Shown: piece by piece, positions 7,982-23,751 of the stretch
How the letters are laid out: each line of letters begins with the position of its first letter
How positions within the stretch are numbered: position 1 is the stretch's first letter
Origin: a virus
Direction: 5' to 3' (one strand)
Virus record (IMG/VR): IMGVR_UViG_3300037193_001819
Span: 1 to 35,368 of that record
Length of the DNA: 35,368 nt
Position numbers and translations under genes: made by a program
Notes under the pieces: generated by a model
Databases searched by the model: none
What the model was told of the DNA's origin: nothing
What the model saw: only the letters and a program-made list of their open reading frames with translations

Positions 7982-8887
7982 ATGGCCCGATGGACCGACC
8001 TCGCCCGATGGCGAGGCCCCTCACCGAACATCGGCGAGGGCGACCAGACCGAAGTGCGCGGCCTCGTCGTCCACATCGCCGCCGGCTGGTTCGAAGGCAC
8101 GATTGCCTGGCAGAGGAACCCGGACTCGAACATCTCCTCGCACTTCGTCGTCTCCCGCAGCGGCGAGATCGCGCAGATGGTCGACACCGACGACGCCGCC
8201 TGGACCCAGCGCTCCGGCAACGGCGAATGGCTCTCGGTCGAGTGCGAAGGGTTCATCGCCAGCGACAGCAAGAACCCCGGCGGCTGGGAGCGGCTGAGCG
8301 ACAAGCAGCTCGACGCCGTCGCGCGCCTCCTCCGCCGCTGCCACGAGGAGTACGGCGTCCCACTCCAGACCACCACCTCGCCGACCGGCCGCGGCCTCGG
8401 CCACCACTCCATGGGCGCCGACTGGGGCCACCGCCAATGCCCCGGCGAACCCATCATCCAGCAGAAACCCGCGATCGTGGCCCGCGCGATCGCGCTCACG
8501 AACGGAGACGACGACATGCCGACCCCCAACGAGTTCTGGAACACCGACGGCGCCGTCCAGGCCCCGCCCTACGCCCTCAAGACCGACCCCAAGAACACGC
8601 ACTGGAGCGCTGGCAACTACCTGCGCTCCACCCGCGAACGCGTCGAGACGCTGGTCGCCGAGACCCGCGCCGTCCGCGCCGGCCAGGCCGCAATCCTCGC
8701 CGCCGTCCAGGGCCTCGACACCGAGAGCGTGATCGCCGCGATCGACGCCGCAGCCGCCGCCGACGCGACCCGCGACACCGCACTGCTCGAGGAGCTGCGC
8801 GAGCTCGCCTCCGGCGGCGCGACCGCCGACGAGGTCATCGACGTACTCATCGAGCGCGCCGCGCGGCTGTCCGGGGCCGGCGAGTAG
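7982..8887 (+). CDS. Endolysin, N-acetylmuramoyl-L-alanine amidase (Amidase_2 type)
   Basis: A 301-residue peptidoglycan amidase that would cut the bond between MurNAc and L-Ala at the end of infection. The catalytic domain is residues 20-170: zinc ligands are H31 (LVVHIAAG), H141 or H142 (GLGHHSMG) and C153 (HRQCPGEP). Residues about 175-300 have no recognised cell-wall domain; the part from 205 on is Ala/Glu-rich and helical (VETLVAETRAVRAGQAAILAAV), perhaps a coiled coil for oligomerisation or wall contact. ATG 7982 has AGGAGG 5 bases upstream. First gene of the lysis cassette. Confidence 0.92.
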   Translation: MARWTDLARWRGPSPNIGEGDQTEVRGLVVHIAAGWFEGTIAWQRNPDSNISSHFVVSRSGEIAQMVDTDDAAWTQRSGNGEWLSVECEGFIASDSKNPGGWERLSDKQLDAVARLLRRCHEEYGVPLQTTTSPTGRGLGHHSMGADWGHRQCPGEPIIQQKPAIVARAIALTNGDDDMPTPNEFWNTDGAVQAPPYALKTDPKNTHWSAGNYLRSTRERVETLVAETRAVRAGQAAILAAVQGLDTESVIAAIDAAAAADATRDTALLEELRELASGGATADEVIDVLIERAARLSGAGE

Positions 8888-14015: not shown

Positions 14016-14044
14016 GCAACGGCCGGGCAATGCCCGGCCGTTGC
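14016..14044 (-). terminator. Long palindromic hairpin after the integrase gene
   Basis: GCAACGGCCGGGC (14016-14028) and GCCCGGCCGTTGC (14032-14044) form a perfect 13-bp stem with a 3-nt loop (AAT). It lies 28 bases after the integrase stop in the leftward direction and would end the int transcript before it crosses attP. Its right side overlaps the start of the right arm repeat. Confidence 0.75.
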
Positions 14045-14071: not shown

Positions 14072-15295
14072 TCAGGCCGCAAGCGCCATCTCCCGCGCCC
14101 TCCCGAGCGCGCTGGCCACCTCCCCGATCCGGGCCGGGAACAGGTCGGTGTACACGTCCAACGTCATCGTCGCGGTCGCGTGCCCCATCGCCGCCTGGAG
14201 GGTCTTCACGTCGGCGCCCTCGGCCACGCTCAGGCTCGCGAACGAGTGCCTGAGCGTATGCGGGGTAGTCCCGGCTGGGAGCTTCGCCGCCTTCACGGCC
14301 GGCCGGAAGACCCGCTCGCGCCAGTTGTACGCCACGATCAAGTCGCCCTTGGGGGAGGGGAACATGAGATCCTCCTCGTCGAGCCCGGACCTGAGCACCT
14401 TCAGCTCCATCACCAAGAACTCCGGGATGCCGACCACTCTGATCTTGCCGCCCTTCGGCAGGCCGAGGGTCGGCCTCCCGTCCTCCCCTTCGATCACGGC
14501 CTCGGTCACGTGCAGCTCGTGCGCGTCGAGGTCGACCGATCCGGCGCGCAGCGCGATCGCCTCACCGATGCGCAGACCGCAGTACGCCAGCGTCAGGACC
14601 ATGACCCGGTAGACGTTCGCCATCGGCTTCGGCTTGCCGTAGGCGGTCCTAAGGCCGGCGACCGCGTCCGCCAGTGCAGTGATCTGCCGGTGGTCGAGAT
14701 ACAGCCGCTTGCCCTTGGCGACGGTCGGCAGTGTGTCGAGCGCCCGGATCGGGTTCTCCGCGATCCGTTGTGACTTCACCGCCCACGTCATGACGCCGAG
14801 CATCACGTGGTGGATGCTCTGCACCCGCGAGGCGCCGACGACGCGTTTCTTGGACCCTTGCAGGCCAGGCTGTTTGTGGAGACTCGAGAGCCATGTCGCG
14901 TAGTCGCCGTAAGTCACCGCACCCACGGAGGTCAGCCCCCAACGGGGGAGTACGTAGCCGTCGAGGATCTGTCGGTACAGGCGCTTGGTCTTGGGCGCCC
15001 ACTTCGGCGTCTTCGCCGTGAACCACTCCTCGGCGACCTCAGCGAGTTTGGTCCTGGCGGCCTTGGGGTCGCGGTAGATTCCGGCCTCGAGGTCGGCGGC
15101 GATCTTGTCACGCAGCGCCTCCGCTTCGGGGACCGTGCGCCGAAGCTCGGAACGGGTCTTCCCCGGGTTGTCGGGGTCAGGCCACCGCACCTGCCACCGC
15201 ATCGGCGGCATCCGCTTTGCCTTCTTCGCCTCGGTGACCTTCTTCCGGTAGGCGGCCTCTTTCATCCTGTCGTGGATCCAGGCCCTCGCCATCAT
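14072..15295 (-). CDS. int: Tyrosine integrase
   Basis: A 407-residue site-specific recombinase. Residues 1-75 are the arm-binding part (RWQVRWPDPDNPGKTRSELRRTV, Arg/Lys-rich start). Residues 85-190 are the core-binding SAM-like domain (EVAEEWFTAKTPKWAPKTKRLYRQILDGYVLPRWG). Catalytic residues: R242 (YCGLRIGEAIAL), H346-x-x-R349 (TPHTLRHSFAS), H372 (MGHATATMTLDVY) and nucleophile Y382. All key residues are present, so it should be active. GAAGGAG lies so close to the first ATG that the second ATG (15292) is the more likely start. The start overlaps the stop of the upstream membrane gene; both are one leftward operon. attP lies just downstream. Confidence 0.95.
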   Translation of the reverse strand: MMARAWIHDRMKEAAYRKKVTEAKKAKRMPPMRWQVRWPDPDNPGKTRSELRRTVPEAEALRDKIAADLEAGIYRDPKAARTKLAEVAEEWFTAKTPKWAPKTKRLYRQILDGYVLPRWGLTSVGAVTYGDYATWLSSLHKQPGLQGSKKRVVGASRVQSIHHVMLGVMTWAVKSQRIAENPIRALDTLPTVAKGKRLYLDHRQITALADAVAGLRTAYGKPKPMANVYRVMVLTLAYCGLRIGEAIALRAGSVDLDAHELHVTEAVIEGEDGRPTLGLPKGGKIRVVGIPEFLVMELKVLRSGLDEEDLMFPSPKGDLIVAYNWRERVFRPAVKAAKLPAGTTPHTLRHSFASLSVAEGADVKTLQAAMGHATATMTLDVYTDLFPARIGEVASALGRAREMALAA

Positions 15296-16648: not shown

Positions 16649-16734
16649 CTGACAGATCGATACATCAACTTGGCCCGGAGCTCTTGACAGATCGATACGT
16701 CAACTGCCTATGCTTTGACGTATGGATACGTCAA
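16649..16734. promoter_or_regulatory. Three 20-bp palindromic operators before the excisionase-like gene
   Basis: Sites: 16649-16668 (CTGACAGATCGATACATCAA), 16684-16703 (TTGACAGATCGATACGTCAA) and 16715-16734 (TTGACGTATGGATACGTCAA). The last is a perfect 9-bp inverted repeat with a 2-base spacer. Start-to-start spacing is 35 and 31 bases. The middle site covers the -35 box and the last covers the start codon of the excisionase gene, so binding would shut the early operon. The likely ligand is the repressor of this window. Confidence 0.8.
16684..16714 (+). promoter_or_regulatory. Early rightward promoter
   Basis: A consensus -35 (TTGACA, 16684-16689) and a -10 TATGCT (16709-16714), 19 bases apart (17 if CCTATG is taken). 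The expected start of transcription is at or one base before ATG 16722, so the first gene would be leaderless. Operators overlap both the -35 and the start site. Confidence 0.65.
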
Positions 16735-16949
16735 CGCCCGTCGAGCTCGCGGCCAAGGAGCTTTTGACCCCGGCCGAGGTCGAGATCGTCTTCGGTTTCA
16801 AGCCCAACACGCTCCGGCAGTGGCGCTATGAGGGCCACGGTCCCCGCTACGTGAAGACGATGCCGGGCCGATCGGGCCTGGTGATGTACCGCCGCAGCGA
16901 CATTGACGCGTGGCTGGACGACTGCACCGTCCAGCCGGCCGCGGCCTGA
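16722..16949 (+). CDS. xis: Excisionase-like winged-helix protein
   Basis: A 75-residue protein with a MerR/Xis-type winged helix: LLTPAEVEIVFGFKPNTLRQWRYEGHGPRYVKT then VMYRRSDIDAWLDD, the standard form of actinophage excisionases (HTH_17). Such a protein bends attP DNA and turns integrase toward excision; as first gene of the early operon it could also act as a Cro-like regulator. No ribosome site is present; the start codon coincides with the predicted transcription start and lies inside an operator. It is far (about 1.4 kb) from int and on the other strand, so the two are separately controlled. Confidence 0.82.
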   Translation: MDTSTPVELAAKELLTPAEVEIVFGFKPNTLRQWRYEGHGPRYVKTMPGRSGLVMYRRSDIDAWLDDCTVQPAAA

Positions 16950-21198: not shown

Positions 21199-21578
21199 GC
21201 ATCACCGAGATCGACCGCGAGGTCACCACCACTATCCGCTACCAGGCGACCTGCACCAGCTGCAGGAAGCGCACTGTCGAGTTCACCGTCGACACCGACA
21301 TCGCCGACATGTTCTCTGGCGGTTACGAGGCCGAGCGCGTCGCCGAGCTCCTCACCGACGACGAATGGACCGTCGTCGGCGACATCACCGATCTCGAGCG
21401 CGCCAGCGTGCTGTGCCCCGAGTGCCCGACCTGCGATGAGGTCGGGCACTCCTGGGCTCCCACCGTGGCCGGCGACCGGATCGGCTGCCGCATCTGCGGT
21501 GTCAAGCCGCATGTCCGGCTCACCGGCGGCGCGACCGCCAAGGGCATGGCCGAGCTGAGGATGACCGCCAGTGTCTGA
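21195..21578 (+). CDS. Zinc-binding early protein, possible paralogue of the preceding one
   Basis: A 127-residue protein; AGGAGG 6 bases before ATG 21195. Cys pairs CTSC, CPECPTC and CRIC; the C-terminal segment GHSWAP to CRICGVKPHV mirrors GHAWRE to CLVCGQKPHV of the upstream gene. The N-terminal half differs (FTVDTDIADMFSGGYEAERVAELLTDDEWT). Function unknown. Confidence 0.72.
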   Translation: MSITEIDREVTTTIRYQATCTSCRKRTVEFTVDTDIADMFSGGYEAERVAELLTDDEWTVVGDITDLERASVLCPECPTCDEVGHSWAPTVAGDRIGCRICGVKPHVRLTGGATAKGMAELRMTASV

Positions 21579-21987
21579 TCTCAAGGGACCGTGGCGGTTC
21601 CAGATCCCCGCGCCCGACGTCTGGATCGAATCCAACGGCGGGCACGGGCACTGGGCCACCACCTCCGGCGCGATCGCGTCCTGGAGGACCGCCGGGAAGC
21701 TCTACGCGCACAAGGCCCGCCTGCCGCACATCCTCCTGCCGGTCACCATTACCGCGCACGTCCACCGGACCGACAACCGCCGCGCCGACGCCGCGAACCG
21801 CTACCCGACTGCGAAGGCCGTCATCGACGGCATCGTGGACGCGGGCGTGCTCGACGACGACTCCGACCGGTACGTCACCGGCGTGATGATGAAGGCCGGC
21901 GCTCGCGTGCTGCCGCGTGAGCACCCGCGGGGGCTGCTCACCGTCGTGATCGCCATCGACCCCTCCCCGGAACGGGAGGCCGCATGA
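21571..21987 (+). CDS. RusA-like Holliday junction resolvase
   Basis: A 138-residue protein, GTG start 21571 inside the end of the previous gene. The RusA pattern is present: a beta strand with basic residues then RRADAANRYPTAKAVIDGIVDAGVLDDDSDRYV, with acidic residues D73, D86, D90 and the D95-D97 cluster standing where the catalytic Asp residues of RusA lie. The N-terminal half is more diverged (FQIPAPDVWIESNGGHGHW). It would cut branched DNA during replication or packaging. Directly before the replication initiator gene, a usual neighbour. Confidence 0.83.
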   Translation: MSDLKGPWRFQIPAPDVWIESNGGHGHWATTSGAIASWRTAGKLYAHKARLPHILLPVTITAHVHRTDNRRADAANRYPTAKAVIDGIVDAGVLDDDSDRYVTGVMMKAGARVLPREHPRGLLTVVIAIDPSPEREAA

Positions 21988-22931
21988 CGACGAAGTGGGA
22001 AGTGGTGGCGGCGCTCAAGAATTCGGGCCTGCTGCCCTCGGACCGGATCATCATGATGATGCTCGTCGACGTCGCCGACGCCGAGACCGCGTACGTCGCC
22101 GAGCAGTGGTCGCCGTCGCTCACGGAGCTGGCGAAGTGGACCGGCCTGGGCCGCTCCACCGTCGCTGCCCGCCTGGACGAGCTCGAGCGCCTGGGCTGGG
22201 TCAAGCGCGAGCGCCCCCCGACCGCGGAGGCGATCGCTCGCGGCGCCCGCACCTGCTACCACCTCGCGATCGGCGAAGCCGTCGAGAAGGTCAAGCCGCA
22301 GCGTCCCGCGAACCCGACTCGGACTAGTCCAACCGCTGGACCCGTCCAGGTATCGGACCAGGTCACGGCCGGTAGTCCAGAAGCGGGACTAGTCCAACCG
22401 CTGGATGAGGGTAGTCCAGCCGTTGGACTACCCCTAGTCCAGCCGTTGGACTCGGCTAGTCCAGCCGTTGGACACAAGAACCACCCTCCTACGGAGGGTG
22501 GTTCACCCACCAGTTCCCACCAAGAGCCCACCACTCCACCGCCTGCGGCTGCCGCCGCCGAGGAGACCCAGGCGCCGACGAAGCGAGCGAAGCAGCCCGA
22601 ACCGCACCGCGAGGACGTCGAACGGCTCTGCGCCGCACTCGCCGACCACCGCGTCCGCCTCGGCTGCAAGCGCCCCACCGTCACCGACGCGTGGCGCAAG
22701 GACGCCCGGCTCCTCATCGACGCCGACGAGGTCGACCTGGACACCGCGCTCGCGGTCCTCGACTGGTCCCAGGCCGACGACTTCTGGAAGGCGAACATCC
22801 GCGGCATCCCGAAGTTCCGCAAGCAGTTCGACACGCTCCGGCTGCGCATGGAATCGAGCCGCGGCCGCCGCCGCGCCGCCTACCAAGACCCACCGAACCG
22901 CGACGTCTCCGGCTACCGGAAGGACTTCTGA
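21984..22931 (+). CDS. Replication initiator / helicase-loading protein with internal origin repeats
   Basis: A 315-residue protein. Residues 1-95 form a winged helix (IIMMMLVDVADAETAYVAEQWSPSLTELAKWTGLGRSTVAARLDELERLGWVKRE). Residues 100-210 are a low-complexity linker encoded by repeated DNA. Residues 215-315 end with ALAVLDWSQADDFWKANIRGIPKFRKQFDTLRLRM, the C-terminal domain of phage replisome organisers that binds a DnaC-type loader. The loader gene follows directly. As in lambda O, the origin seems to lie inside the gene: seven 15-bp iteron-like repeats fall in the linker. Start ATG overlaps the RusA stop. Confidence 0.83.
   Translation: MTTKWEVVAALKNSGLLPSDRIIMMMLVDVADAETAYVAEQWSPSLTELAKWTGLGRSTVAARLDELERLGWVKRERPPTAEAIARGARTCYHLAIGEAVEKVKPQRPANPTRTSPTAGPVQVSDQVTAGSPEAGLVQPLDEGSPAVGLPLVQPLDSASPAVGHKNHPPTEGGSPTSSHQEPTTPPPAAAAAEETQAPTKRAKQPEPHREDVERLCAALADHRVRLGCKRPTVTDAWRKDARLLIDADEVDLDTALAVLDWSQADDFWKANIRGIPKFRKQFDTLRLRMESSRGRRRAAYQDPPNRDVSGYRKDF
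22327..22473. repeat. ori: Seven iteron-like repeats, candidate phage origin of replication
   Basis: Repeats of GTCCAGCCGTTGGAC (five-base inverted arms GTCCA/TGGAC around five bases) start at 22327, 22344, 22375, 22392, 22414, 22437 and 22459. The last three are identical; those at 22327 and 22392 read GTCCAACCGCTGGAC/T; those at 22344 and 22375 are degenerate. Spacing is 17, 31, 17, 22, 23 and 22 bases, near two helical turns for the last ones. Several are preceded by CTA or GTA. A perfect 11-bp inverted repeat follows at 22479-22503. Layout inside the initiator gene matches lambdoid origins. Confidence 0.82.
22479..22503. promoter_or_regulatory. Perfect 11-bp hairpin next to the iterons
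   Basis: AACCACCCTCC (22479-22489), loop TAC, GGAGGGTGGTT (22493-22503). It begins 5 bases after the last iteron and lies within coding sequence, so it is kept in addition to protein needs. It may be a cruciform or single-strand element of the origin, or a pause site. Confidence 0.62.
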
Positions 22932-22932
22932 C

Positions 22933-23751
22933 ATGGCCACCAACCCGAACATCACCGTCGGCGCCTCCACCGCCCCGCGCGGCGCCCGCTGCCCCGACCA
23001 CCCCAGCGAAACCGCCGCGCACTGCGGCCCCTGCCGCTCCGAACTCCTCGGCGGCCTCACCGCCGGCGACGAGCAGTCCGGCTTCGCCGCGCTGGCCGCC
23101 GACGAGCGCGAATCCCGCCTCGTGGCCCGACTGCGCCGGTTCGCCACGAACCGCTGGAAGGCCCAGTGCGACCCCGAGTTCGCCGACGCCTCCATGGACG
23201 ACGTCCCCGACCTCGTCACCCAGGACGCGGCGGTCATCTACGCGTGGGTCGACGCGTGGAACGCCGGCGCTGACCCGCTCCCGTGGCTGGCGATCTCCGG
23301 ACCCACCGGCACCGGGAAGACTCACCTCGAGCACGCCGTCGTCGGCGCCGTCGTCACCGGCCCCAACCCGGCCGAGTGCATCGTCATCACCGCGCCCGAG
23401 CTGTTCGATTCCCTCCGGCCCGACGCTCCCGAGCGCGCGGTCCGCCTGTTCCAGTACCAGACCACGCCGCTGCTCGTGATCGACGACCTCGGCGCGAACG
23501 GCCACTCTCCCTGGGTTGAGGAACGCACCCACCTGATCCTCAACTACCGGTACAGCAAGGGTCTCCCGGTCGTCTTCACCACGAACCTCGAGCCCGACGA
23601 GCTCCGCGTCGCCATCGGCGGCCGCATGGTCTCCCGGCTCCGCCAGCGGTGCCTGCGCGTCGTCCTCGAAGGCGAGGACCGCCGCAAGCCCCCCACCCTG
23701 CAGGGCCTCGCGCTCGCCACCGCCGCCGCGCTGGAGACGAGCGGCCGATGA
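22933..23751 (+). CDS. DnaC-like helicase loader ATPase
   Basis: A 272-residue AAA+ protein. An N-terminal Cys cluster (CPDHPSETAAHCGPC, residues 20-34) may bind zinc. Walker A is GPTGTGKTH (123-131), Walker B is LLVIDDLG (180-187); further motifs are TTNLEPDELR and RMVSRLRQRC (sensor/arginine region). It would load the host DnaB helicase at the phage origin together with the upstream initiator. ATG 22933 is 1 base after the initiator stop. No phage helicase is seen, so the host helicase is presumably used. Confidence 0.9.
   Translation: MATNPNITVGASTAPRGARCPDHPSETAAHCGPCRSELLGGLTAGDEQSGFAALAADERESRLVARLRRFATNRWKAQCDPEFADASMDDVPDLVTQDAAVIYAWVDAWNAGADPLPWLAISGPTGTGKTHLEHAVVGAVVTGPNPAECIVITAPELFDSLRPDAPERAVRLFQYQTTPLLVIDDLGANGHSPWVEERTHLILNYRYSKGLPVVFTTNLEPDELRVAIGGRMVSRLRQRCLRVVLEGEDRRKPPTLQGLALATAAALETSGR

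Follow-up and report, generated by a model that had tools for sequence, protein, structure and literature searches.

Within the gene for its replication initiator, the phage analyzed here carries an array of seven 15-bp dyads that we consider, with high confidence, to be a lambda-type origin bound by dimers of the initiator in whose gene it lies. The array is located in a window of 35,368 nucleotides (the whole stretch of DNA analyzed, IMG/VR record IMGVR_UViG_3300037193_001819). An intragenic origin bound by its own initiator had been proposed in the original prediction, and it is the reading best supported by the sequence comparisons: the dyads have been kept as DNA, and their half-site co-varies with the recognition helix.

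In the mechanism that we propose, the N-terminal winged helix would bind each 15-bp dyad as a dimer, each GTCCA half-site being contacted by one recognition helix, and the array would be covered by several initiator dimers. To the right of it, the flanking DNA would open, the C-domain together with a DnaC-like loader would bring in the host helicase, and replication would start at the array. A hairpin to the right of the array would act as an accessory origin element, most likely as single-stranded or cruciform DNA.

The initiator gene, the iteron array and the flanking hairpin

The virus record includes genes for tape measure, minor tail, endolysin, integrase, primase, and terminase. The initiator matched phrog_391 ('replication initiation O-like') over residues 9-297, i.e. 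across both the N- and the C-domain (E = 2.8e-27). A PF13730 (HTH_36) winged helix-turn-helix was recognized at residues 18-73 (29.0 bits, gathering cut-off 25); at E ≤ 0.01, neither PF04492 (Phage_rep_O) nor the RepA_N domain PF06970 was among the Pfam matches. AlphaFold2 predicted a confident winged helix at residues 1-99 (N-domain pLDDT 95.4, recognition helix at residues 57-70) and a confident helical C-domain at residues 210-300. Residues 106-196 mostly had pLDDT below 50, and both the array and the hairpin are encoded within this linker. The phrog_50 loader gene lies directly 3′ of the initiator gene (Table 1). Thus, the arrangement originally predicted, i.e. repeats in the low-complexity linker of a winged-helix initiator followed by a DnaC-like loader, was borne out by the matches to phrog_391, PF13730, and phrog_50.

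Foldseek against the PDB matched only winged helices of the generic MarR/Fur-like kind, with no match at E ≤ 0.001, and no sequence relative was found in the PDB. The sole megablast match of the window to named phages was to a 362-bp part of the Streptomyces phage VWB endolysin gene. Few or no matches resulted from tblastn of the N-domain against phages and plasmids.

As predicted, seven 15-bp GTCCA/TGGAC repeats, three of them identical, are spaced at steps of 17-31 bases (17, 31, 17, 22, 23, and 22) between positions 22327 and 22473. They comprise four perfect GTCCA-N5-TGGAC dyads and three with one mismatch. Outside the array, a scan for this dyad at up to one mismatch gave a single match in the 35-kb window, at 8705, and no second cluster. 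A tandem-repeat finder reported only two further arrays in the window. Three 21-nt repeats (TGACAGATCGATACATCAACT) at 16650-16736, with steps of 35 and 31 bases, are possibly operators of a control region (integrase gene at 14072-15295, minus strand). Perfect 13-bp inverted repeats were also seen at 21420-21451 (6-nt loop), upstream of the RusA-like gene, and at 14016-14044 (AAT loop), adjoining the end of the integrase gene.

Table 1. Features in and around the initiator gene, with positions in the window
Feature	Position	Strand	Remarks
RusA-like Holliday junction resolvase, upstream neighbor	21571..21987	+	phrog_34, E = 1.9e-16
Lambda-O-like initiator gene, 315 aa	21984..22931	+	N-terminal winged helix, disordered linker, O-like C-domain
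Recognition helix codons, residues 56-70 (G56-R57-S58-T59-V60-A61...)	22149..22193	+	AlphaFold2; half-site co-variation
Iteron 1, GTCCAACCGCTGGAC	22327..22341	+	Perfect dyad, codon offset 1
Iteron 2, GTCCAGGTATCGGAC	22344..22358	+	1 mismatch, codon offset 0
Iteron 3, GTCCAGAAGCGGGAC	22375..22389	+	1 mismatch, codon offset 1
Iteron 4, GTCCAACCGCTGGAT	22392..22406	+	1 mismatch, codon offset 0
Iteron 5, GTCCAGCCGTTGGAC	22414..22428	+	Perfect dyad, codon offset 1
Iteron 6, GTCCAGCCGTTGGAC	22437..22451	+	Perfect dyad, codon offset 0
Iteron 7, GTCCAGCCGTTGGAC	22459..22473	+	Perfect dyad, codon offset 1
Candidate unwinding region	22460..22509	.	GC 0.60 vs 0.689 for the record; AT peak there in relatives
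Hairpin, GAACCACCCTCC-TAC-GGAGGGTGGTTC	22478..22504	.	12-bp perfect arms, 3-nt loop; minus-strand loop GTA (GNA triloop)
DnaC-like helicase loader (AAA+)	22933..23751	+	phrog_50, E = 3.2e-36; PF01695 / PF00308

In 45 relatives, AT content peaked at 0.47 in the first 40 bp past the last iteron, compared with about 0.31 around it. The window's own dip toward AT is shallow (GC 0.60 vs 0.689). GC skew of the window displayed no switch at 22.4 kb and was uninformative.

The perfect hairpin announced after the array is present, with arms of 12 bp instead of the predicted 11 bp. Folded as single-stranded DNA, it reached -14 kcal/mol (z about -6), which no shuffled sequence equaled. Within the 70 bp after the arrays, 13 triloop stems of at least 7 bp were detected in 3,150 bp, at distances of 4-44 bp from the array, and the loop is TNC in 12 of the 13; outside these stretches, the loci contained a single TNC stem in 179,653 bp. 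A TNC loop on the plus strand is a GNA loop closed by C-G on the other strand, and C(GNA)G DNA mini-hairpins have been described as extraordinarily stable (PMC4686876). When the 12 stems were aligned at the loop, 99% of cells were paired with 27 two-sided changes, compared with at most 62.5% and at most six in slid control registers; these changes are not all independent, since the aligned stems represent four clades of the tree. Such a hairpin occurs in 13 of 45 array-bearing relatives. As most of them lack one, the hairpin is to be regarded as an accessory element, not as one essential to the family. Similar hairpins lie just before the C-domain in two loci reached via that domain (L251 and L252).

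The plus strand of the hairpin spells CUNCGG, the hexamer that forms the stable UNCG tetraloop in RNA, and the hairpin is transcribed within the gene. It could hence be an RNA element (terminator, attenuator, or mRNA structure) instead of an origin element, with the iterons still forming the origin. However, no T run follows it, the covariation supports the triloop register, unlike the register of a UNCG tetraloop, and the hairpins cluster next to the array and are nearly absent elsewhere. We consider an RNA element rather unlikely on these grounds. As a DNA element, our preferred reading, the hairpin may for instance signal priming or loading at GC-rich phage origins. A role of the GGAGG in the hairpin as an internal Shine-Dalgarno sequence was considered as well.

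Co-variation of half-site and recognition helix

Relatives of the initiator were collected via the N-domain, irrespective of repeats, with the exception of L198/L339, first met in a repeat scan. N-domain relatives were found for 42 of 355 in the family of the Catellatospora hit and for 11 of 396 in the Streptomyces family sample; an even sampling of the phylum recovered the seed genome alone. An alignment of very diverse N-domains was rejected as a search model because it was too divergent. Dyads were detected by a script accepting any 5-bp arms; three rows (L256, L376, and L330) were added with half-sites set by hand, and those of L256 and L376 rest on few copies.

The half-site was found to go with the recognition helix of its own gene. 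These pairs include (i) GRSTVA with GTCCA or GTCCC; (ii) ARST[VI] (e.g. ARSTVA) and ARSSV with GTCCG; (iii) GRSTVK and AKSTVK with GGCCA; (iv) SRRAVA with GTGCA; (v) SRSALT with TACCG; (vi) xK[SG][SAT][FL]L with GGTC[AG]; and (vii) GKATVA with GTCTC. Across 33 dereplicated arrays, half-site and helix showed a partial correlation of 0.55 once the rest of the domain was controlled for (none of 5,000 permutations was as high), and half-site and the rest of the domain one of 0.09 once the helix was controlled for.

Two residue-level rules became apparent. Arginine at helix position 7 coincides with C at base 5 (10/0/0/38 genes), with six changes of each on the tree and agreement in all five starred independent pairs. 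K, Q, R, or L at helix position 6 coincides with G at base 2 (10/0/0/38 genes; three of three starred pairs). The tree was built without the helix columns and has 86 columns only. Both counts are descriptive, because they were made on the very data from which the rules had been derived. The position 7 rule is broken by L027, a gene outside the family.

A natural swap is provided by L353, the window's sister in the tree (support 99/96, with a long branch and few columns), whose genome belongs to the same family as the Catellatospora hit. Its helix reads GRSTVK against GRSTVA in the window (A61 to K), and its array, at the corresponding place with steps of 17, 22, 17, 22, 23, and 22, is built on GGCCA-N5-TGGCC against GTCCA-N5-TGGAC. 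The common copies, GGCCAGCCGTTGGCC in L353 and GTCCAGCCGTTGGAC in the window, differ solely at base 2 and its partner; the T to G change at base 2 is present in 12 of 14 half-sites of L353 and in none of the 14 of the window.

The C-domain of L353 is not O-like, and the gene next to it resembles the window's loader. Among the 12 genes whose C-domain is O-like, eight different half-sites were counted, and GTCCA occurs both with an O-like C-domain and with another one (L339). Taken together with L353, this indicates that the half-site travels with the N-domain. The C-domain is not a predictor of the iteron: relatives found by it alone carry other linker repeats, e.g. GGGAACAGG. Direct repeats of the GGGAACAGG type were seen in the linkers of O-like initiators with another N-domain from Streptomyces and Gordonia phages (L012, L013, L016, and L017).

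Because the half-site follows the recognition helix of its own gene, the initiator itself very probably binds these dyads. Tandem 15-bp dyads would also suit a repressor or a ParB-like protein, whose operators or partition sites would then merely be located in the initiator gene. A second cluster is absent from the window, however, and the half-site tracks the helix encoded by the surrounding gene, as opposed to the remainder of the domain, which makes sites of another protein very improbable. If the initiator is the binding protein, each gene of the family combines lock and key, i.e. a DNA-binding domain with its own sites. With the binding sites present in every gene, the recognition code becomes readable, and specificity can be deduced from sequence alone across many genomes. 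How initiators recognize origins, and how this recognition evolves, can thereby be tested directly, and the origins of uncultivated phages can be located and typed.

When viral contigs were scanned for GTCCA-N5-TGGAC dyads in tandem pairs, 49 stretches were obtained. An iterated N-domain profile, trained partly on the same array-bearing ORFs, placed about 22 of these arrays within winged-helix ORFs. Independently of this profile, 12 out of 20 ORFs submitted to Pfam (18 of them viral) matched PF13730 or PF04492 above cut-off. The scrambled dyad CTGAC-N5-GTCAG proved a poor negative control, with 9 of 27 matches also overlapping winged-helix ORFs. Since it behaves alike, dyad arrays appear to be general in such genes, with GTCCA one word among many; the idea that GTCCA is special because it is common to many phages was dropped after this control scan. 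The CTGAC-N5-GTCAG arrays in winged-helix ORFs comprise L223-L249, and in the ORFs examined the helix R or K tends to lie one position later than in GTCCA genes. Triple GTCCA-N5-TGGAC dyads, mostly GTCCAGACCTTGGAC at 21-bp steps, were also noted on many contigs of a PVC-group MAG (L190, L195-L197, L201, L205, L217, L219, L221, and L222), where they form a dispersed element.

Selection on the repeats as DNA

Successive iteron copies alternate between two codon frames, so that the peptides SPxxG and VQxxD (VQPLD) are encoded in turn. Codons that are rare in the reference set of ten window genes occur in the repeats, namely AGT (0.03 of Ser), CCA (0.05 of Pro), and CTA (0.02 of Leu). In 20,000 synonymous-codon resamplings of the linker, at most four dyads with up to one mismatch and at most two perfect dyads were obtained, compared with seven and four observed. 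Since the observed counts were never reached, a chance origin of the seven dyads is excluded. Among related genes, 44 of 57 linkers contain at least four dyads, compared with 3 of 1,140 resampled controls, and all 44 family arrays use two or three codon frames. Dyad arrays thus recur at the linker in these 44 genes, and the half-site word varies between genes. The case named beforehand as refuting the origin, a conserved linker peptide with no repeats at the DNA level, is the opposite of what was seen, as the dyads are kept, the frames alternate, and the peptides differ.

The repeats are thus selected as DNA, as evident from one word in two codon frames, the rare codons, and the failure of resampling. 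Although the region does encode a disordered low-complexity linker, the notion that selection acts on a repetitive Ser/Pro-rich peptide, with the repeats arising as a side effect, is for practical purposes refuted by this two-frame use of a single DNA word, which gives unrelated peptides, as well as by the rare codons, by synonymous resampling that cannot reproduce the array, and by the linker of L353, where V to G, S to R, and D to A changes left the dyads in place.

Comparison with known systems

In the limited set of literature searched, no description of a residue-level code or of a post-array hairpin was found. The chances appear about even that this winged-helix initiator family has such a recognition code together with a recurrent C(GNA)G hairpin acting as a single-stranded or cruciform origin element. 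In GC-rich hosts, in which AT-rich DNA is scarce, the hairpin would, if it acts as DNA, provide lambda-type origins with an additional structural element. GNA-triloop mini-hairpins of the d(GCGAAGC) type share the C(GNA)G loop that the window's hairpin has on the minus strand; those described are isolated hairpins used in aptamers (PMC4686876), whereas here they recur past iterons on long, co-varying stems.

In plasmids with RepA_N initiators such as pSK41, the Rep boxes lie centrally in rep, are bound by the N-terminal wHTH, and form an ori that encodes the linker, according to the passages of PMC5703833 drawn on here. The same passages describe the staphylococcal plasmid pPR9 as a replicating chimera with a phage-type PF13730 N-domain that differs from pSK41 just across the N-domain and the origin region, a precedent for a PF13730 initiator arriving with its own origin. 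Unlike the window, these are Firmicutes plasmids, and RepA_N is a different Pfam family; neither residue-level co-variation nor a hairpin is described in those passages. In Vibrio, PLE RepA and ICP1 Odn likewise have semi-palindromic iterons, and origin and RepA_N domain co-vary as modules (PMC8263062); there, however, the origin is non-coding, the initiator is of the RepA_N family, and co-variation is at the level of modules and not of residues.

Close parallels exist with phage lambda ori and its O protein (PF04492, phrog_391), which share with the window a winged-helix N-domain, dyad iterons placed centrally in the initiator gene, a related C-domain, and an adjacent helicase loader gene; the AT-rich stretch beside the lambda iterons has a counterpart in the clear mean AT peak of the 45 relatives. 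The original prediction had regarded the inverted-repeat form of the iterons as less usual than direct repeats, which is incorrect, as lambda O is a dimer and the individual iterons of lambdoid phages are themselves imperfect inverted repeats (PMC7466680). In contrast to lambda, the window's N-domain matches PF13730 and not PF04492, its 15-bp dyads have another half-site, its loader is DnaC-like, a hairpin follows the array, and the AT dip is shallow. With these differences, the window's origin would work like lambda ori and O, and is probably best described as a variant of the lambda-type intragenic origin.
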